A DNA stretch of 64,000 nucleotides, from contig NZ_JAQQXQ010000006.1 in assembly GCF_028595285.1 (NCBI RefSeq), forward strand, positions 1 to 64,000. The letters are read 5' to 3'. The position numbers were made by a program, and so were the translations under genes. This document shows positions 3,026 through 30,305 of this stretch, in pieces. The DNA comes from Erythrobacter fulvus. Its GTDB lineage: Bacteria; Pseudomonadota; Alphaproteobacteria; Sphingomonadales; Sphingomonadaceae. Every line of letters begins with the position of its first letter. Within the stretch, counting starts at the first letter, position 1. The notes below the pieces were generated by a model. That model saw only the letters and a list, made by a program, of their open reading frames with translations, was not told where the DNA came from and did no database searches.

Positions 3026-5041
3026 ATGAGATCGCTTCGCACCAGGCTCGGATTCAGGGCCAATGTCGCAGGTGAAGGCACTGCCTGTGACGTAGAACGT
3101 GCTCATCGTTTGATCAGTTACTCGGAGAAATTCGAAGCGAGGTGGTTCTGGGAGACCGATGCTGATGGTCGCCTTACTTACCTTTCGGAAGCAGTTTCTG
3201 ACCAAATTGAAACATTTGGAATCAATCCAATAGGAACACCGATCGAGAAAATTTTTCGTCTCGACGAGGTTGATGCGCAACATCTTCGATCGCTCAAGTT
3301 CCACATTGTATCTCGGACCTCGTTTTCGGAATACCCCATCCGAGCAAAAAAGGGGCTGCACGAGAGTTGGTGGTCTATCTCAGGCCGCCCGTGGTTCGAT
3401 CTCGACGGAAACTACCAAGGCTTTGTCGGGTCAGGAACTGATCTGACCAAGGCCCGAAAACAAGAAGCGACCATCCGACGACTTGCCGTCACGGATAGCC
3501 TGACAGGCCTTGCGAATAGGCAACGTATGCAAGATCATCTGGAGGCCCTGCTCAGATCTGAAGGTCGCAACAGCTCAGACTGCTCTCTTATGATCATCGA
3601 CCTTGATGGCTTTAAAGGCGTGAACGACACGCTCGGCCATCCGGTGGGTGACGCTCTTTTGATCCGTGTCGCGGAGAGATTGTCGTCGGTAGTCGGCGAG
3701 AGCGGAGTCGTCGGTCGACTTGGCGGCGATGAGTTTCAAATACTGCTACCGGGCCATCGCACTGAAAAAGGGCTTTCGGATTTAGCTTGCCAAACAATCA
3801 AAATAATTTCGGAACCATATTTGATCAACGGATCGACGGTAAACATAAATTGCTCGATCGGAATTGCCTCCTCTGACATTCATAGCAATCCAGACAATAT
3901 CGTTAGGAATGCAGATCTTGCCCTATATTCCGCAAAGAAAGAAGGTAGAGGAAAATTCTTCTTCTTTGATGAGAAGATGCTATTAACGGCTAAGTGGCGA
4001 AAACGACTAGAGGATGACTTGCGGAATGCGGTCAACAAAGACCAGTTGAAGCTCATGTTTCAGCCGATCGTTGAAGCAAACTCAGAGACGATCAAGGGCT
4101 TCGAGGCACTTCTTCGATGGGATCACCCCCAAGAGGGGAGCATATCTCCAAGTGAATTCATCCCGATTGCCGAAGAAAGTGGATTAATTCAGCAAATAGG
4201 CGATTGGGTAATCAGGACTGCAGTCGATGTAATTCGGTCACTTCCTAGTGATTTGCGAGTGGCCGTGAACGTATCTCCGATACAATTTAGCAATCCTGCT
4301 CTGCTAACGACCGTTGCGAATGCAATTTCATTCGCTCAGATTGACCCCTCTCGGCTTGAGCTTGAGTTGACTGAAAGCGTCTTCCTAGAAGATTCAGCTA
4401 AGTTGCAAAAAATCTTCAAATCGCTTAAGGCGCTTGGCGTCCGACTTGCGCTCGATGACTTTGGGACCGGTTACTCGAGTTTATCATACTTGAAAGAAGC
4501 ACCATTCGATAAAATTAAAATTGATCAGAGCTTTGTGAAAGGCGCTGTCGATCCGCGGAGCAGAAACTCAGCGATTATCGCGGCCATCGTTTCCCTTTCG
4601 AATGCATTAGGAATGGAAACCACTGCTGAAGGCCTCGAGCATCAAGACGAAATTAGATTGATAAAAAGGCTTGGCTGCACCCAGATCCAAGGCTTTGTGT
4701 ACGGTGGTGCATTGGATATTGATGAATTACTCCCCGAATTACAGGCCGGCGTGCGAAGAATGCGGCCGATTGGGCCCAGACGAAGCCGAAGGCCCAGAAC
4801 AACCTTCATCAAGCCCGCATCGATGAATATAAATGAAGGGCAAGCATCGGTCTTGATCAGAAACATTTCTGAGAATGGTGCATTACTGGAATATAACCAC
4901 TTCTCGGAAGGAATGGTTGGCGTCAATATCCGCCTTGATTTCGTAGGAATTGATGGAACATTAGCGACCATCCGCTGGGTCGCACAAGGCCAAGCTGGCG
5001 TGGAATTTCACGAAACCATTGCTCTGAACTCGATTTTTTGA
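3026..5041 (+). CDS. PAS-GGDEF-EAL-PilZ cyclic-di-GMP protein
   Basis: 671 residues, no signal peptide or membrane helix, so cytoplasmic. A PAS/PAC domain (about 28-155) is followed by GGDEF (about 160-320) with intact G233-G-D-E-F237. The EAL domain (about 335-575) keeps E360-A-L-L-R, V-N-V-S, E-L-T-E-S, D477-D-F-G-T-G-Y-S-S, K-I-D and T-A-E-G-L-E. A short C-terminal PilZ-like domain (about 585-665) shows an Arg cluster and N-I-S-E-N-G. All active-site signatures for c-di-GMP synthesis and hydrolysis appear intact. The added PilZ could sense the product and switch output; that is inference. The start has only a weak upstream GGAGAAGA site. Single gene. Confidence 0.9.
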   Translation: MRSLRTRLGFRANVAGEGTACDVERAHRLISYSEKFEARWFWETDADGRLTYLSEAVSDQIETFGINPIGTPIEKIFRLDEVDAQHLRSLKFHIVSRTSFSEYPIRAKKGLHESWWSISGRPWFDLDGNYQGFVGSGTDLTKARKQEATIRRLAVTDSLTGLANRQRMQDHLEALLRSEGRNSSDCSLMIIDLDGFKGVNDTLGHPVGDALLIRVAERLSSVVGESGVVGRLGGDEFQILLPGHRTEKGLSDLACQTIKIISEPYLINGSTVNINCSIGIASSDIHSNPDNIVRNADLALYSAKKEGRGKFFFFDEKMLLTAKWRKRLEDDLRNAVNKDQLKLMFQPIVEANSETIKGFEALLRWDHPQEGSISPSEFIPIAEESGLIQQIGDWVIRTAVDVIRSLPSDLRVAVNVSPIQFSNPALLTTVANAISFAQIDPSRLELELTESVFLEDSAKLQKIFKSLKALGVRLALDDFGTGYSSLSYLKEAPFDKIKIDQSFVKGAVDPRSRNSAIIAAIVSLSNALGMETTAEGLEHQDEIRLIKRLGCTQIQGFVYGGALDIDELLPELQAGVRRMRPIGPRRSRRPRTTFIKPASMNINEGQASVLIRNISENGALLEYNHFSEGMVGVNIRLDFVGIDGTLATIRWVAQGQAGVEFHETIALNSIF

Positions 5042-5154: not shown

Positions 5155-5356
5155 TTTGGGGGCGCTGCCCGAATGGCAGGAATTGTCCCGAAGCGGGGTA
5201 AAGCGGCCATCAGCGCCCTGATCTCAGCTGTGACGGCTGTCGGCCCAGACCCGGTCGTTGACGGCCGCCGCGCTGAACGTCTGCTTCCGCCGAAAGCCGC
5301 CATACCGCTTTCGGGCGATGCGGGTTGCGGGCCGAATGACCGCTAATGGGTGGAAT
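5155..5356 (+). repeat. Dispersed intergenic repeat R1, copy 2
   Basis: Fills most of the 5042-5402 gap. Its 3' half includes AAGCCGCCATACCGCTTTCG, then GGGTTGCGGGCCGAATGACC, nearly identical to the copy ending at 20760. It ends at AATGGGTGGAAT like the others. No ORF of note. Confidence 0.75.
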
Positions 5357-5402: not shown

Positions 5403-7745
5403 TCAAGCGCACAACTGACGCTGATATCCTGCTCCGTCGCGCAGTAACTCGGCGACCGCATCGGCCGCTACAGGCCTTGAGAACAGATAGCCCTGGATGT
5501 TTTCGCAGCCTTCGCGTTCGAGCACTTCGAATTGTGCGACATCTTCCACACCTTCCGCGAGCGTCTCCATGCCGAGGGCGGCAGCCAGAGTTGTGATGGC
5601 GCGGATCACCGCATGGCCATTGCTAGTGGTCCCAAGATCCTCAACAAAGCTCTTGTCGATCTTGACCTTGTCGAAGGGGAAGGAGCGAAGATAGCTTAGC
5701 GACGAATAGCCGGTCCCGAAATCGTCGAGAGCAATCCTGACACCCAAATTCCGCAGCGAATGCAGTGTGGCCAATGTCTTGTCGACATCTGAGATAAAGA
5801 TGCTTTCGGTGATCTCCAATTCGAGCCGGTCGGGAGCCAAACCGCTTGCCGACAGGGCAGAGAGCACCGTTCCGGTTATTCCGTTCGCCGCGAATTGTTT
5901 AGGCGACACATTCACCGCGACCGAGACATCATCAGGCCAGGTGCTCGCTTGGTGGCAGGCCTCGCGCAGCACCCATTCGCCAATCGGAATAATCAGCCCG
6001 GTTTCTTCTGCCAACGCGATAAACTCGACCGGATTGACCCGGCCCCGAGTGGGATGGTTCCAGCGGATCAACGCCTCAAAGCCGGTCAGGCGCTTTTGCG
6101 CGAGGCTGTAGAGCGGCTGAAAATTAAGCTCGAACCCTCCCTCCTTGACCGCGGCACGCAGGTCAATTTCCATCTGGCGACGTTGGCGGGCCTCTTCATC
6201 CAGCGCGGGCTCGAAGAAGTGGTAGGTCGACTTGCCTTCATGCTTGGCGCGGTAGAGCGCAAGGTCGGCATTCTTCATCAGTGTGGTGTCGTCCTCGCCA
6301 TCGACCGGTGCCATGGCGATACCGACACTAGCCCCGCACGACGCGGTCTGACCGTTGATCGTCAATGGACGCTCAAAGCTGCGCTGCAAGCCATCGGCGA
6401 TGCTGCCGAGGCTGGCGTTGTCCTCGATCCCGTCGATCAGGATTGCAAACTCGTCTCCACCCAATCGCGCGATCAGCGCGTCGGGCAGATCCTCGCGCAG
6501 GTGATCGGCCACTTGCCGCAACAAGGCATCGCCTGCCGGGTGCCCAAGCGTGTCGTTGACCATCTTGAAGTCGTCCAGGTCGACATAGGCGACCATCATC
6601 CGTTCACTCGGCTTGCGCCTTGCAAGCATGCTGGTGAGTTGTTCTGTAAATAGTTTGCGGTTGGGCAGACCGGTAAGTCCGTCGTGCAAGCCCACATGGA
6701 TAATCTGGCGCTCGCGCTCCTCGATCGCGGTAACCATCGCATTGAAGCTACCCGCCAGCCTCCCGATCTCGTCGTCGGTCTCAATCGTCAGGCTGACATC
6801 GCGGCCCTCGCTGATCAGCCGCGTCGCTTCGTCAAGCTGCTGAAGCGGTCCGGTTACTGACCGGGCGACGTTCCAACTCAACGCCAGCACCAGCACGATA
6901 CCGCCGACGGCAAGCGCGATAAGCCAAACTTTCAGACTGCCATAGGGAGCAAGAGATGCTGCGAGAGAATGACGCAACACCAACCGAGGCACAACGCTGT
7001 CCTGAAGGACCTCAAGGTCTGATGTGTAATAGAGGGATCGCTCGCCCTCGGCCTCGTGTTCAAACACTGCACCTGATTGGATGCCGCGCAGCCAGTCAGG
7101 CTGGTTGCTTTCATCCACCACCCGAGCATCGAGGGCGATCGGGGCGAGTTCGACCAACCGGTCAAGCTCTGCTCGGTCAAGTGGCTGGGCAATGACAAGC
7201 CAGCCGATCAGGTCGGGCGCCTCGATCGGCGCAGCGGCGGCAAGCGCCAGGCCTTTTTTCGAAGCGATAATCCCGCGTGTGCCGCCAGCTTCGAGCCGCG
7301 ACCACAAGCTTTCGGGTGCGGAAATGTCTGAAGCATTGGCCGCCAGCACCACACCATCCAGCGTCAGAACGAAGGCGATGTCGCTATTGACGCGGGTTTC
7401 AAGGCTTTCGAGCGCGCTGGCGATGGTCTGCGCGTCCTCTGTCGCAACCGCCTCGCGAAAGCCGAAATCCCGCGCCAGAACCTCGGCCTGATCACCCATC
7501 TGCCGCGAACGAGCGGTGAGGATTTCGTCGAACACGCGGGCATTGGCGGTCAGATCGCGGGCCGCGCCTGCTTCTGCAAAGCGTGCCAGCCCGCCAAGCG
7601 CGAGCGACACCACCAATGCCAACACCAGTGCAAATAGCCCGGCAAACAGAAAAGCGATGCGCGAGCTAAACGAACCGAAGCGCAGCACCGCAATGCGTGC
7701 GAAGGTCGCCCGCAGCGGACGCGGAACCAGTCGTATCAGGCTCAT
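5403..7745 (-). CDS. Membrane HAMP-GGDEF-EAL protein
   Basis: 780 residues. A transmembrane helix near 28-50 is followed by an extracytoplasmic sensor region (about 50-265), a second helix (about 270-290), HAMP (about 290-345), GGDEF (about 360-520, G429-G-D-E-F433) and EAL (about 540-775, E557-A-L-I-R, D-D-F-G-T-G-Y-S-S, K-I-D-K-S-F-V, L-A-E-G-V-E). Both catalytic signatures are intact. The sensor resembles double-Cache type ligand-binding domains but I cannot name the subtype. The ATG overlaps the stop of the upstream cupredoxin-like gene by four bases, so the two are translationally coupled and the cupredoxin may supply the periplasmic cue. Confidence 0.9.
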   Translation of the reverse strand: MSLIRLVPRPLRATFARIAVLRFGSFSSRIAFLFAGLFALVLALVVSLALGGLARFAEAGAARDLTANARVFDEILTARSRQMGDQAEVLARDFGFREAVATEDAQTIASALESLETRVNSDIAFVLTLDGVVLAANASDISAPESLWSRLEAGGTRGIIASKKGLALAAAAPIEAPDLIGWLVIAQPLDRAELDRLVELAPIALDARVVDESNQPDWLRGIQSGAVFEHEAEGERSLYYTSDLEVLQDSVVPRLVLRHSLAASLAPYGSLKVWLIALAVGGIVLVLALSWNVARSVTGPLQQLDEATRLISEGRDVSLTIETDDEIGRLAGSFNAMVTAIEERERQIIHVGLHDGLTGLPNRKLFTEQLTSMLARRKPSERMMVAYVDLDDFKMVNDTLGHPAGDALLRQVADHLREDLPDALIARLGGDEFAILIDGIEDNASLGSIADGLQRSFERPLTINGQTASCGASVGIAMAPVDGEDDTTLMKNADLALYRAKHEGKSTYHFFEPALDEEARQRRQMEIDLRAAVKEGGFELNFQPLYSLAQKRLTGFEALIRWNHPTRGRVNPVEFIALAEETGLIIPIGEWVLREACHQASTWPDDVSVAVNVSPKQFAANGITGTVLSALSASGLAPDRLELEITESIFISDVDKTLATLHSLRNLGVRIALDDFGTGYSSLSYLRSFPFDKVKIDKSFVEDLGTTSNGHAVIRAITTLAAALGMETLAEGVEDVAQFEVLEREGCENIQGYLFSRPVAADAVAELLRDGAGYQRQLCA

Positions 7746-8383
7746 CGCACCGCGACCTTAGCTTTGTGCGTCTGCGCGCCGCCATTCAGTGTGATTGTCG
7801 AACCTATTTCGTTGCCCGGAGCCCGCAGCATCGGGTGCCATACAGTAAGGCTCGCTTTACCGCCGGGTATTGCTTCAAACGTAACGTATCCGTTGTGATC
7901 GGTTTTACCCGCAAAGGGCGTGTCGGTAACGCGGATATAGCCGCGCATCTCGTCATGAATGTTGCACCCAAGTTTGACGCTGCCGGTAATGTTGAAGGTG
8001 TGGCTTCGGGTTTGGTCGCGCCCATAGAGCTCAATCTCGAAGCGGGCCGGCTTGGAAAAGCTGTAAATGGAATGGCGCACCTGATCGAGATTCGGGAAGG
8101 CGACCGTGCTGCCCCGAGCAACAATCAACGTGCCGGGGGTAAATTGACGATTCTTCTGCGCCATACCCATTTTCCATGGAAAGCGGATCAGTCCAGGGGC
8201 GGTATTGCTGCTGCGCAGCTCGACCACCGCATCGCGGACTGGCAGGCCATCGGCATCGACCACCTGAACCCGTAGGCTGGCAGATGTGGCAGCCTGCACC
8301 AACGCTGCCCCGCCAACGAGTGTGGCGAGCAGCGAAACGAACAATGCGGCAGGTAAGGCAAAGAAGGGCAGACGGCGGTGCAT
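7742..8383 (-). CDS. Exported cupredoxin-like protein ('methylamine utilization protein' family)
   Basis: 213 residues from an ATG at 8383 with GGGACGGGA upstream; an ATG at 8431 would precede the signal peptide by 16 residues. It has an N-terminal signal peptide, then a carboxypeptidase-regulatory-like segment (A-D-G-L-P-V-R-D-A-V-V). The later part carries H104 and a C140-x2-H143-x2-M146 cluster, the spacing of type 1 copper ligands in cupredoxins. The usual database name refers to methylamine utilization, but no mau genes are nearby. It overlaps the downstream GGDEF-EAL gene by four bases. It is divergent from DUF3034 and hemoglobin, with 90 bases between. Confidence 0.8.
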   Translation of the reverse strand: MHRRLPFFALPAALFVSLLATLVGGAALVQAATSASLRVQVVDADGLPVRDAVVELRSSNTAPGLIRFPWKMGMAQKNRQFTPGTLIVARGSTVAFPNLDQVRHSIYSFSKPARFEIELYGRDQTRSHTFNITGSVKLGCNIHDEMRGYIRVTDTPFAGKTDHNGYVTFEAIPGGKASLTVWHPMLRAPGNEIGSTITLNGGAQTHKAKVAVR

Positions 8384-8473
8384 GATCGATCCCGTCCCTA
8401 GACGCGACCCCTTAAGAATCCCTCGCTTCATCCTTTAGGGAGAATTTACCTTGCGCTTCTAATCGGCTGGCTG

Positions 8474-9520
8474 ATGACGATAATTTCCTCCTGCCTGCTT
8501 GCATTGTGCCACGCGGCGGCGATGAGCGCAGGGTCGGCAATTCCGGTAACCGCCCCCCACATCGCCTACGCACCGGTCCTTGATGAAGAGCCTGAACAGG
8601 CACCGCTATCCCCCACTATCCCGGATGATCAGGCTGTCGCGTCTGCGATCCGCGCGCTCCAACCCCTTGGCCCGACCAGTGCGCTCAGCGATGGGGAAGG
8701 GGGTGTGCGGATCGGGAAAATCGAACTGTTCGAGGGCGGCAAACTTCTGTTGACCAACGGCGTTGCCACTGTCGAAGGTTCGTCTGGCGGAGGGATCGCG
8801 CGCTGGGGGACCATCGGGGGACGGCAAATGCCGGGTGGGATAGGCCTTTCGGCCCACGCGACCGCGATCGAACTACCCGACTTTAGCTGGCGGTCATACG
8901 GCGTGCTGCTGGGCGTCGACGATAGGCTGGAGCTGAGCGTATCGCGGGCCGATTTCGATACGCGTGACGTGGGAACGGCGCTCGGCATCGGGCAAGGCTA
9001 CACCTTCAACCTCGACACCTTCGGCGCGAAGCTGCGGTTGGCGGGCGATCTCGTGTATGGCGAAAGCTGGTTGCCGCAGATCGCAGTCGGCATCGAGCAC
9101 AAGCGCAGCCGCGACGCTGATTTGGTGCGCGCAATAGGTGCAGCTGATGACGAAGGAACAGACTACACTCTCAGCGCGACCAAGCTGCTGCTGGCCCGCA
9201 GCGTGCTGGTCAATGCGACTCTGCGCTACACCGAGGCCAACCAGCTGGGCCTGCTCGGTTTCGGCTCCGCGGGCGAAGGCTACAATCTGCAATTCGAAGG
9301 CTCGCTCGGCTACCAATTGTCACGCCGCGCGGTGATCGGTGCTGAATATCGCACCAAGCCCGATATTCTCGGCCTGGGCGAGGACGACTGGCTGGACCTG
9401 TTCGCTGCTTATGCCCTGACCGACCATCTCACACTCACCGCAGCCTATGTCGATCTCGGTTCGATCGCCACCTTCCCCGATCAACGCGGCGGATTCCTGT
9501 CCGCGCAGGTCGCGTTCTGA
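8474..9520 (+). CDS. DUF3034 family protein, predicted outer-membrane beta-barrel
   Basis: 348 residues starting with a short signal peptide (to about 22). The body is alternating hydrophobic strands rich in aromatic residues, with phrases typical of DUF3034 such as E-L-S-V-S-R-A-D-F-D-T, L-G-I-G-Q-G-Y-T-F-N and P-Q-I-A-V-G-I-E-H-K. It ends in an amphipathic strand finishing A-Q-V-A-F, as in outer-membrane proteins. DUF3034 function is unknown. It is 25 bases upstream of the truncated hemoglobin gene on the same strand, so the two probably form an operon. Confidence 0.8.
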   Translation: MTIISSCLLALCHAAAMSAGSAIPVTAPHIAYAPVLDEEPEQAPLSPTIPDDQAVASAIRALQPLGPTSALSDGEGGVRIGKIELFEGGKLLLTNGVATVEGSSGGGIARWGTIGGRQMPGGIGLSAHATAIELPDFSWRSYGVLLGVDDRLELSVSRADFDTRDVGTALGIGQGYTFNLDTFGAKLRLAGDLVYGESWLPQIAVGIEHKRSRDADLVRAIGAADDEGTDYTLSATKLLLARSVLVNATLRYTEANQLGLLGFGSAGEGYNLQFEGSLGYQLSRRAVIGAEYRTKPDILGLGEDDWLDLFAAYALTDHLTLTAAYVDLGSIATFPDQRGGFLSAQVAF

Positions 9521-9545
9521 TGCAATTGTCTGAAAGTCCTTTGCC

Positions 9546-10079
9546 ATGCTGATACCTGCCGCCACCGCTGTCCTGATGGTGATTCAACAGGCACCCGCAG
9601 AAGGCACCGACTGGGATGCAGAGTTTGGGGTCGAGACGAAGCAGCGCGATCCTGTCACCGGTGAACTGCCGGTCGATCCCTACGAACAATCCAACGCCAA
9701 CGCCGGAGCTGCGCCTTACGACAGCGCCGGACTGGTTCGCGATTTCGGGGGGCGCGACGGCATCGCCCGGATTGCCGGCCGCACAGTGGACCTTGCCGAA
9801 TCCGATCCGCGCATCGCCGTCATTTTCGAAAGCCATGACATGGTGCGCCTGAAACGCACACTGAGCGAACAATTCTGTTATCTACTCGGTGCTGGCTGCG
9901 ATTATACCGGCCGTGACATGCGCGCCGCGCATGATGGCATGGGCGTGACCAAGGCCGACATGAACGCGCTGGTCGAGAACCTTCAGTCCGCAATGCGCGA
10001 AGCGGGCGTGCCGTTCGCCGCGCAGAACCGGCTACTCGCAAAGCTTGCTCCGATGTCGCGAAAGATCGTTGAGCGCTGA
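9546..10079 (+). CDS. Group 1 truncated hemoglobin with N-terminal extension
   Basis: 177 residues. Residues about 60-177 match group 1 truncated hemoglobins: F-G-G-R-D-G-I-A-R-I, D-P-R-I, then F-C-Y-L-L-G-A-G-C-D-Y-T-G-R-D-M and A-A-H129-D-G-M-G, where H129 should be the proximal heme ligand. The first 60 residues are extra. They start with a hydrophobic stretch (L-I-P-A-A-T-A-V-L-M-V-I) that could be a weak signal peptide, followed by an acidic linker, so export is possible but uncertain. Oxygen, NO or redox sensing is the family-level expectation. It lies downstream of DUF3034 in a likely operon. Confidence 0.85.
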   Translation: MLIPAATAVLMVIQQAPAEGTDWDAEFGVETKQRDPVTGELPVDPYEQSNANAGAAPYDSAGLVRDFGGRDGIARIAGRTVDLAESDPRIAVIFESHDMVRLKRTLSEQFCYLLGAGCDYTGRDMRAAHDGMGVTKADMNALVENLQSAMREAGVPFAAQNRLLAKLAPMSRKIVER

Positions 10080-10093
10080 TACAGGGAATGGCC

Positions 10094-10300
10094 GTTTAGG
10101 GGTCGGTTGCTGAATTTCGGCTTTTGGCAGAACCCGGGCCGAAGCCGACAATCGTAGCCTGAGTGAGGTAGCGGCGGCTGCCGACTCAGACACAGTCGTT
10201 CGCGGCCGTCGACGCGATCGTCTGGTTCCGCCAGAAGCTGCCATACCGCTTTCGGGATCGAGCCCTGACCTTGCTGATGGCTTCAACTGGGTAGGAAGCA
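10094..10300 (+). repeat. Dispersed intergenic repeat R1, copy 3
   Basis: Starts AGGGGTCGGTTGCTGAATTT, the subtype B head also seen at 39523 and, more diverged, at 32757. It continues through AGAAGCTGCCATACCGCTTT and ends in CTTCAACTGGGTAGGAAG. It occupies most of the 10080-10441 gap; the remainder holds no recognisable element. Confidence 0.75.
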
Positions 10301-20563: not shown

Positions 20564-20760
20564 ATGGGGTCGCTTCCGGAATAGCAGGAATTTTCCAGAA
20601 GCGAGGCGAAGCGGCCATTCGCGGTCCGATCTAAGGGGTGACGGCTTCCGACCCAAACCCAGCCGGCCACAATCAGCAGATTGAGCGTCAGCTTCCGCCG
20701 AAAGCCGCCATACCGCTTTCGGGCGATGCGGGTTGCGGGCCGAATGACCGCTAATGGATG
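20564..20760 (+). repeat. Dispersed intergenic repeat R1, copy 4
   Basis: Good full-length copy: ATGGGGTCGCTTCCGGAATA head, AATTTTCCAGAAGCGAGGCG, then AAGCCGCCATACCGCTTTCG and GGTTGCGGGCCGAATGACCG tail. The last roughly 60 bases are almost identical to copy 2. Between 20286 and 20938 there is no gene; the rest is unassigned. Confidence 0.75.
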
Positions 20761-25134: not shown

Positions 25135-25330
25135 ATGGGATCGCTTCCTGAACGGCGGGAATTTTCCAGAAGCGAGTCACAGCCGCCACTAGGACTGCGG
25201 CAGCTGCCGACCCAAACCAAGTCATCCACGATGATCAGGCTCAACGTCTGCTTTTGCCGAGAGCAGACATGCGGCTTTCGGGATTGCGGCTAGATCCCGC
25301 TGATGGCTGCAACTGGGTGGCAATCGGAAA
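25135..25330 (+). repeat. Dispersed intergenic repeat R1, copy 5
   Basis: Head ATGGGATCGCTTCCTGAACG, then GGAATTTTCCAGAAGCGAGT; tail GGCTTTCGGGATTGCGGCTA and GCTGCAACTGGGTGGCAATC. It sits in the 24964-25520 gap, which holds no gene that I can see. Confidence 0.75.
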
Positions 25331-30112: not shown

Positions 30113-30174
30113 GATTCTTCTCCAGCGACCAGAATGGTCACCAGAAGAATGTCTGTAGGCCGGATGGTTGAAAA

Positions 30175-30305
30175 TGGTGGGTCGCTGATCGACCCAGACC
30201 CCGTCGTTCACGGACCCCTGATCGAACGTCTGGTTTCCCCAGAATCCGCCATTCCGCTTTCGGGATCTGGCCCCGACCCCGTTTATGGCTGATTGTGGGT
30301 GGAAA
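30175..30305 (+). repeat. Dispersed intergenic repeat R1, copy 7 (3' half)
   Basis: TGGGTCGCTGATCGACCCAG, then AATCCGCCATTCCGCTTTCG and tail GTTTATGGCTGATTGTGGGT. This is the 3' half of R1, just upstream of the integrase gene. Confidence 0.65.

Follow-up and report, generated by a model that had tools for sequence, protein, structure and literature searches.

A conserved cell-envelope module of a predicted DUF3034 barrel, an exported globin, a cupredoxin-like protein, and a putative c-di-GMP receptor

The window analyzed here is a stretch of 64,000 nucleotides from Erythrobacter fulvus (contig NZ_JAQQXQ010000006.1, positions 1 to 64,000), and the locus of interest consists of two gene pairs that are transcribed divergently. 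Encoded on the reverse strand are a 780-residue inner-membrane receptor (5403..7745) and an exported cupredoxin-like protein of 229 residues (7742..8431), whereas the forward strand carries the genes for a 348-residue DUF3034 protein (8474..9520) and an exported group-1 truncated globin of 177 residues (9546..10079). All four open reading frames were found where a first-pass annotation of this DNA had placed them, and the sequence confirms both the four-base overlap between the cupredoxin and receptor genes and the 25 bases separating the DUF3034 and globin genes. The divergent promoter region between the cupredoxin and DUF3034 genes (8384..8473, without strand) has the 90 bases ascribed to it provided that the cupredoxin starts at 8383 and the DUF3034 protein at 8474; with the longest cupredoxin reading frame, which starts at 8431, it shrinks to 42 bases. 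As judged by eye, Met17 at position 8383 is the likely true start.

The receptor was assigned on the basis of Pfam matches, motif comparison, and an analysis of its partners. It is predicted to contain a periplasmic sensor of the dCache_3/CHASE4 type followed by HAMP, GGDEF, and EAL domains, with E-values of 9.9e-72 for EAL, 7.8e-40 for GGDEF, 1.3e-9 for HAMP, 2.6e-6 for CHASE4, and 2.7e-5 for dCache_3, the score of the last falling just below its cut-off. In the window receptor, both the GGDEF motif and the EAL motifs that were checked are intact. Each of the 34 receptors compared retains the residues of the EAL motifs (E, L, N, E, DD, K, E), and the GGDEF motif is degenerate in 23. Given that the EAL motifs are kept and the GGDEF motif has so often decayed, hydrolysis of c-di-GMP is most likely the output that these receptors conserve, as predicted from these residues. 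The 23 degenerate GGDEF motifs would also suit an effector of the LapD type, which binds c-di-GMP and is no enzyme. In LapD, however, it is the EAL domain that is degenerate and non-catalytic, the opposite of what is seen in the 34 receptors, and the window receptor scores 137 bits against a LapD model with a cut-off of 1020. A LapD-type function is thus regarded as very unlikely.

The second protein of this pair was assigned from an alignment of its ligands, an AlphaFold model, and fold matches. It has no match to a cupredoxin family in Pfam, and its sole hit there is a sub-threshold one to the carboxypeptidase-regulatory family. A sequence search of the PDB returned weak amicyanin matches (best E 0.015), from which alone its identity as a cupredoxin would not follow. 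The AlphaFold model (pLDDT 96.7) displays a predicted cupredoxin fold, onto which plastocyanin (2plt) aligns with a Z of 13.0 and an rmsd of 1.6 for 83 aligned residues. According to the model, the cupredoxin domain would be inserted within a transthyretin/carboxypeptidase-regulatory-like domain. The putative copper ligands are His120, Cys156, His159, and Met162, the last three in a C-x2-H-x2-M arrangement, and all four are kept in 33 of 33 alignment rows and in 45 of 45 rows of alignment A4. By its fold and its His, Cys, His, and Met ligands, the protein is probably a type-1 cupredoxin with a copper site. It resembles the cupredoxins of the amicyanin/plastocyanin type in these two respects, but differs from them in that its cupredoxin domain lies within a transthyretin-like one and is coupled to signalling receptors. 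One family member carries the database label "methylamine utilization protein", and no methylamine dehydrogenase is annotated adjacent to it.

The DUF3034 protein matches PF11231 with an E-value of 5e-85 and 285.6 bits against a curated cut-off of 25 bits. Its AlphaFold model (pLDDT 82.8) contains 12 antiparallel strands, and the sequence ends in a phenylalanine. The protein is predicted to be a 12-stranded outer-membrane β-barrel. The closest folds are those of FapF (Z 19.8, 219 aligned residues, 13% identity), KdgM (Z 18.7), and a COG4313 channel (Z 18.5). The predicted barrel fold is common to FapF, KdgM/NanC, and the COG4313 channels, but identities are only ∼9-14% and DUF3034 constitutes a separate Pfam family; the likeness to FapF, an amyloid-secretion channel, lies in the 12-stranded fold alone. 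The copper transporter PcoB (7pge) appears well down the matches, at rank 38 with a Z of 13.1. OmpC-type porins, placed at the top by Foldseek (E 2.9e-8), were rejected in light of an rmsd of ∼13 and a TM of ∼0.4, and a second fold comparison favored the 12-stranded channels.

The globin was characterized by its Pfam match, an alignment with HbN, residue counts, and an inspection of N-termini. The match to PF01152 has an E-value of 1.4e-7 (32.1 bits versus a cut-off of 21), and the best match in the PDB is Mycobacterium tuberculosis HbN (2.5e-9), to which it aligns without gaps. The proximal histidine is His129, and Cys111 and Cys118 form a pair. The distal pocket is apolar, lined by Val81, Phe94, Leu102, Leu106, and Leu142 at positions which, mapped through the ungapped alignment, we take to be B10, CD1, E7, E11, and G8, respectively. 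The proximal (F8) histidine is present in 118 of 118 globins, which together with the Pfam match places the protein among the group-1 truncated hemoglobins. Among the 117 complete rows, B10, E7, E11, and G8 are all devoid of polar residues in 112; B10 is occupied by V, L, M, or I in 114, and all 117 have L, F, or I at E11. The two cysteines co-vary, with both present in 108 globins and neither in nine, one further sequence being a fragment. HbN shares the Pfam family, the proximal histidine, and the CD1 phenylalanine, but the globin here appears to be exported, often has a lipobox, and combines the apolar B10, E7, E11, and G8 positions with a conserved cysteine pair. The pocket argues against a role as an HbN-type NO dioxygenase, given that the distal Tyr B10 and Gln E11 are replaced by apolar residues. 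The possible export extension noted at first pass is supported by the loci outside of the window's class, 22 of 33 of which show a lipobox pattern. The apolar pocket also argues against oxygen storage, as far as can be judged from sequence. Hydrophobic globin pockets are linked to very fast loss of O2 (PMC4720485). The pocket is better suited to NO or a different redox-active ligand than to the stable binding of O2.

That these genes belong together is strongly supported by their distribution. Of 398 genomes sampled from the phylum, 39, or approximately a tenth, carry DUF3034. The globin gene lies within 1 kb of it at 39 of 39 loci (38 other genomes), and all four genes occur together at 29 of these 39. 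A second set of loci, the best 80 of at least 589 confirmed stretches as ranked by likeness to the window, shows the globin within this distance at 78 and the four genes together at 58; at one of the 80, DUF3034 stands alone. According to profile models, the cupredoxin is present in 53 of the 398 genomes and the receptor in 49, with 48 of the 49 receptor genomes also carrying the cupredoxin. In an all-against-all BLAST census of the neighbors at 119 DUF3034 loci, the top four groups of reading frames were the module genes, and the next groups with more than 14 loci were antisense frames lying over them. Among the 46 most widespread groups that were listed, no further neighbor recurred at more than 14 loci. 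Lactate dehydrogenase-like (lldD) and DinB-like genes, named by eye, lie beside two DUF3034-globin pairs. The first-pass suggestion of a module, which would have fallen had these genes shown no co-occurrence elsewhere, is thereby confirmed: the four genes constitute a conserved cell-envelope module that is more than chance. Comparison of the loci further indicates that DUF3034 and its distinctive, putatively exported globin form one unit, that the cupredoxin and the predicted dCache/CHASE4-HAMP receptor form a second, and that the two travel together.

It could be that these units are independent and have a common locus for co-regulation only, with the DUF3034-globin unit handling heme or a hydrophobic ligand and the cupredoxin-receptor unit serving in sensing. 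DUF3034 and the globin do occur without the other two genes nearby at six of the 39 loci, cupredoxin and receptor are found together in genomes that lack DUF3034, and the fold relatives of the barrel include small-molecule channels. Set against this are the genome-wide counts, in which association persists even when the genes are unlinked: of the 39 DUF3034 genomes, the cupredoxin is found in 38 and the receptor in 37, and in one (G078) both are absent. Two separate units are accordingly considered possible but rather unlikely.

The pairing of cupredoxin and receptor extends beyond DUF3034. A cupredoxin gene is located no more than 500 bp from 45 of 53 strong receptor matches. Module loci supplied the sequences for the globin, cupredoxin, and receptor models, which therefore favor matches resembling module members, and for this reason the receptor count is also given without the 26 members of the search alignment: 20 of the remaining 27 have a cupredoxin within 500 bp, and five have none within 1.6 kb. 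This gene pairing supports the link drawn at first pass between a copper-site protein and c-di-GMP. Outside of the DUF3034 loci, receptors with the same type of sensor likewise lie next to the cupredoxin, and the outputs include EAL, a class III cyclase (at locus L140 by Pfam, and at L135, which is 38% identical to L140), and a Ser/Thr kinase (L154). For hybrid kinases as a further output, the case is weaker.

Of 26 cupredoxin loci retrieved away from DUF3034, eight lack a neighboring receptor of this type; five of the eight adjoin an exported protein of ∼410 residues and one an exported protein of 290 residues, and hence a role in transport also fits. Under such a scheme the module would acquire or handle copper or another metal, with the barrel providing entry through the outer membrane, the cupredoxin acting as a periplasmic carrier, the receptor as a secondary reporter, and the globin being ancillary. 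The invariant type-1 ligands, the five receptor-less cupredoxins beside a different exported, possibly barrel, protein, and the occurrence of PcoB among the fold matches, albeit low, are consistent with it. The 46 groups listed in the neighbor census, however, reveal no copper gene set accompanying the module, type-1 copper sites usually serve in electron transfer, and the swappable signalling output is better accounted for by sensing. Metal handling is therefore judged unlikely.

The first-pass annotation had proposed that copper, oxygen, or NO is sensed and linked to c-di-GMP. The connection between copper protein and receptor is supported, and copper/redox conditions and NO are among the candidate signals. 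NnrS, a weak proxy for an NO response, is not enriched in DUF3034 genomes (19 of 39 versus 209 of 398 overall, p 0.74), and none of the FNR/Dnr, NorR, NsrR, CueR, CopR/CusR, CsoR, and OxyR patterns is enriched in 64 divergent regions. The globin pocket speaks against oxygen storage. These results also bear on the notion that NO or peroxide is detoxified in the periplasm by globin and cupredoxin acting as redox partners, with the receptor reporting the flux. Both seem to be exported and carry cofactor sites of a redox type, the heme ligand is invariant, and the conserved cysteine pair would suit an oxidizing compartment; nevertheless, the pocket lacks the HbN TyrB10/GlnE11 pair and is of the hydrophobic kind linked to very fast O2 loss, NnrS shows no enrichment, and some DUF3034-globin pairs have no cupredoxin nearby. 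Such a function in envelope electron transfer or NO removal is deemed improbable.

The reading that we favor, and consider on balance probable, is that the cupredoxin and receptor work as a pair that senses in the periplasm and sets the breakdown of c-di-GMP, the barrel and globin being an accessory arm. The cupredoxin would serve the receptor as its input subunit in the periplasm, and its copper or redox state, or its occupancy, would alter how it contacts the sensor domain and thereby switch the phosphodiesterase, tuning biofilm formation versus motility. More loosely, the DUF3034 barrel might admit a small ligand that ends at the cupredoxin, and the globin, whether free in the periplasm or anchored as a lipoprotein, might capture or transform that ligand beforehand. 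A broader and more tentative proposal is a family of cupredoxin-gated receptors, in which dCache/CHASE4 receptors with interchangeable outputs (c-di-GMP phosphodiesterase, class III nucleotide cyclase, Ser/Thr kinase, and perhaps hybrid histidine kinase) would have the same exported blue-copper-type protein as a detachable sensor head. In the DUF3034 version, an outer-membrane channel and a gas-binding globin outside the cytoplasm might supply this head, such that copper/redox conditions or NO at the outer membrane would be read as a loss of c-di-GMP.

Few GGDEF-EAL receptors, to our knowledge, have an input that has been identified. The nearest parallel is NspS-MbaA, in which the receptor is presumably likewise of the GGDEF-EAL type. 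As described in two reports, this system of Vibrio cholerae and Sinorhizobium meliloti couples a periplasmic protein, NspS, which senses polyamines, to a transmembrane c-di-GMP receptor (PMC5646818, PMC9993111). In both cases, a transmembrane receptor is encoded beside an exported partner. NspS, however, is a periplasmic solute-binding protein by these accounts, whereas the partner here is a predicted cupredoxin/transthyretin-like protein, the output of the receptor can be exchanged, and the module has a globin and an outer-membrane barrel in addition. No description of the module was found in the open-license papers searched, and it looks like an undescribed sensor of cell-envelope conditions. 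DUF3034 is a family named as being of unknown function, and the module provides all four genes with a common, testable context. It suggests, moreover, that cupredoxins can act as sensor subunits and not as electron carriers alone.

One further feature of the divergent regions is kept apart from the main claim. The hexamer TTAACC occurs in 35 of the 64 regions, compared with a mean of 4 after shuffling, and ranks first of its 90 anagrams, the next occurring in 23; it is not present in the window's own divergent region. The scan covered divergent loci only, which are alphaproteobacterial as far as they are named. The hexamer resembles the CtrA half-site, given as TTAACCAT in PMC3692519.

The four open reading frames of the module are located where the first-pass annotation placed them. 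The receptor gene (5403-7745, reverse strand; Pfam EAL, GGDEF, HAMP, and CHASE4/dCache_3) is overlapped by four bases by that of the cupredoxin (7742-8431, reverse strand), for which Pfam provides only a sub-threshold carboxypeptidase-regulatory match. On the forward strand, the DUF3034 gene (8474-9520; Pfam DUF3034) is separated by 25 bases from the globin gene (9546-10079; Pfam bacterial-like globin). The overlap and the 25-base gap had both been given correctly; the proposed 90-base divergent gap is right for a cupredoxin start at Met17 (8383) and shortens to 42 bases with the longest open reading frame. In public annotation the parts carry unconnected names, namely "EAL domain-containing protein," "DUF3034 family protein," and "group 1 truncated hemoglobin," with the cupredoxin listed as either "carboxypeptidase regulatory-like" or "methylamine utilization protein."

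DUF3034 is present in 39 of the 398 sampled genomes of the phylum, the window's genome included, and the surroundings of the matches in the other 38 provided 39 loci. The co-occurrence elsewhere that the first-pass annotation called for is indeed observed: a globin gene lies within 1 kb of DUF3034 at all 39 loci, and globin, cupredoxin, and GGDEF-EAL receptor all accompany it at 29. The incomplete loci comprise three with a cupredoxin and no receptor, one with a receptor and no cupredoxin, and six with the globin only; the 39 include L070, a second, decayed copy within a single genome. Within the best 80 of 589 confirmed stretches, which derive from Sphingomonadales, Caulobacterales, Lysobacterales, Burkholderiales, and others, the globin is found at 78 and the complete set at 58. 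One of the two globin-less loci, L170, is cut by a contig end and the other, L222, is a true exception; some other loci lacking parts sit on short contigs. Six of the 29 four-gene loci, all from Alphaproteobacteria, are divergent like the window, 22 display the order cupredoxin-receptor-DUF3034-globin on a single strand, and in one the second pair follows the first. In the set of 80, cupredoxin and DUF3034 lie on opposite strands at 56 of the 58 four-gene loci. In Caballeronia the genes follow one another as DUF3034-globin-cupredoxin-receptor, including on a replicon classed as a plasmid. At loci L056 and L062, the DUF3034-globin pair lies near genes named by eye as an lldD-like lactate dehydrogenase and a DinB-like polymerase.

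Across the 398 genomes, cupredoxin matches (99 bits or more) occur in 53 and receptor-domain matches (190 bits or more) in 49. The cupredoxin is found in 38 and the receptor in 37 of the 39 DUF3034 genomes, and 48 of the 49 receptor genomes carry the cupredoxin; thus, where pairs are unlinked, the missing part is usually elsewhere in the same genome. Fisher's test gives p <1e-38 for each pair, with shared ancestry uncorrected and with search models that, having been built from module loci, are biased toward such matches. The module-globin model yields 42 matches scoring 130 bits or more, of which 40 neighbor DUF3034; the others are in genomes G154 and G328, and the next match down scores 87 bits. 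Relatives with likely lipoboxes (loci L157 and L158, 130-131 bits) occur in two genomes without DUF3034. In many genomes of family f38 (G056:C44, G029:C4, and G100:C14, for example), truncated-globin genes stand in tandem as pairs or triplets, most of them scoring 53-67 bits against this model.

The cupredoxin and the receptor are also paired away from DUF3034. A cupredoxin gene is found no more than 500 bp from 45 of the 53 strong receptor matches and no more than 1.6 kb from another two; when the 26 receptors that contributed to the search alignment are left out, the count within 500 bp becomes 20 of 27. Of the six unlinked receptors, five come from genomes that encode a cupredoxin at another site; the genome of the sixth, G119, does not. 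Beyond the DUF3034 loci, 26 further cupredoxin loci were fetched. At 13 of them the cupredoxin adjoins a GGDEF-EAL receptor that shares this N-terminal domain, at two a receptor with a C-terminal class III cyclase (L140, by Pfam, and L135, by 38% identity to L140 along its length), and at one a dCache-HAMP Ser/Thr kinase (L154). The N-terminal part of the L140 protein matches the window receptor with E 5e-29, and the alignment ends before the output domain. Less secure are the pairings of weaker cupredoxins (99 and 113 bits) with hybrid histidine kinases at L155 (Pfam, ~1 kb away) and L156 (by eye). At five loci without a receptor (L132, L139, L141, L144, and L147) the neighbor is one of a set of mutually related exported proteins of ~410 residues, possibly barrels, the three scanned having no Pfam match; at one it is a 290-residue exported protein, likewise without a Pfam match. 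Neither kind of partner is present at L138 and L145, the latter having an open reading frame ~0.9 kb from the cupredoxin with a weak GGDEF/EAL match (74 bits). It is chiefly this combination of one sensor type, interchangeable outputs, and one exported partner that points to the cupredoxin as an input subunit.

With respect to output, 31 module receptors, the window's among them, and three second receptors were compared. The checked EAL motif residues are intact in all 34 and the GGDEF motif in 11, including that of the window, and thus the conserved activity is probably c-di-GMP hydrolysis. A second GGDEF-EAL gene (3026-5041, forward strand), with a weak C-terminal PilZ match, is convergent with the module receptor. 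The NspS-MbaA system works in a similar way, pairing a periplasmic partner with a transmembrane c-di-GMP receptor; the module does not belong to it, however, because the receptor is here partnered by something other than a solute-binding protein. That general arrangement is known. The accessory arm appears undescribed: in the open-licence literature, searches for the parts, singly or combined, yielded no description of the four-gene set.

The AlphaFold model of the cupredoxin, for which the alignment contained the window sequence and 44 of 63 usable sequences from the best 80 of 589 stretches, is a confident one, with a mean pLDDT of 96.7. In model numbering, residues 39-123 resemble plastocyanin (Z 13.0, rmsd 1.6, 83 aligned) as well as amicyanin. 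A second β-sandwich is built from the flanking segments, and carboxypeptidase N (Z 11.3, 78 aligned) is among the matches that span approximately residues 1-183. The cupredoxin thus appears, in the model, to be inserted into a transthyretin-like domain. The ligands His120, Cys156, His159, and Met162 are invariant in 33 of 33 rows and in 45 of 45 rows of a second alignment.

In the globin, the proximal histidine is retained in 118 of 118 rows, and in 112 of 117 complete rows no polar residue occupies position B10, E7, E11, or G8 of the distal pocket, the exceptions being L038, L055, L066, L176, and L237. According to PMC4720485, TyrB10 occurs in about 80% of cases, and highly hydrophobic pockets are linked to O2 off-rates that reach 10^4 per second. 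In 108 rows Cys111 and Cys118 occur together, and in nine neither is present (one fragment set aside), a pattern that suggests a disulphide; since the nine are related alphaproteobacterial sequences, the number of losses is lower than the number of rows. A simple lipobox pattern precedes the globin domain in 25 of 117 rows: at 22 of 33 loci outside the Alphaproteobacteria and none of six within it in the 39-locus set, and at three of 78 in the best 80 of 589, all three doubtful by eye. At least three more likely lipoboxes (L035, L045, and L048, by eye) were missed by the pattern. The alphaproteobacterial globins have, by eye, a short hydrophobic N-terminus.

The DUF3034 model contains 12 strands with a mean pLDDT of 82.8, the first 22 residues being poor. 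OmpC-type porins headed the Foldseek results but were rejected, the superposition being poor (rmsd near 13). A second structure comparison prefers FapF (Z 19.8, rmsd 2.9, 219 aligned), followed by KdgM (Z 18.7, rmsd 2.0, 170 aligned) and a COG4313 channel (Z 18.5). For the predicted barrel these matches indicate fold, not substrate.

Copper, oxygen, or NO had been proposed as the periplasmic signal. NO or redox state is attractive because of the apolar globin pocket and the redox-type copper site. NnrS was not found to be enriched in DUF3034 genomes (19 of 39 versus 209 of 398), nor were known NO, O2, or copper regulator patterns in 64 intergenic regions between the divergent genes. The sequence TTAACC is enriched in the cupredoxin/DUF3034 intergenic regions (35 of 64 versus a mean of 4 in shuffles) and is ~24 times denser there than across whole loci; the 35 regions with it are those of L063, L065, L066, L068, and 31 loci from the best 80 of 589, and the window's own divergent region does not contain it. 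TTAACC resembles a CtrA half-site (PMC3692519), and its enrichment would suit motility control.

An intergenic repeat of ~100 bases is present in at least five same-strand copies in the window (5222-5330, 10152-10275, 20615-20745, 25180-25310, and 30160-30290), two of which closely flank the module. The 3.1 Mb genome contains three mismatch-free occurrences of its 17-base core pattern, every one of them inside the window.
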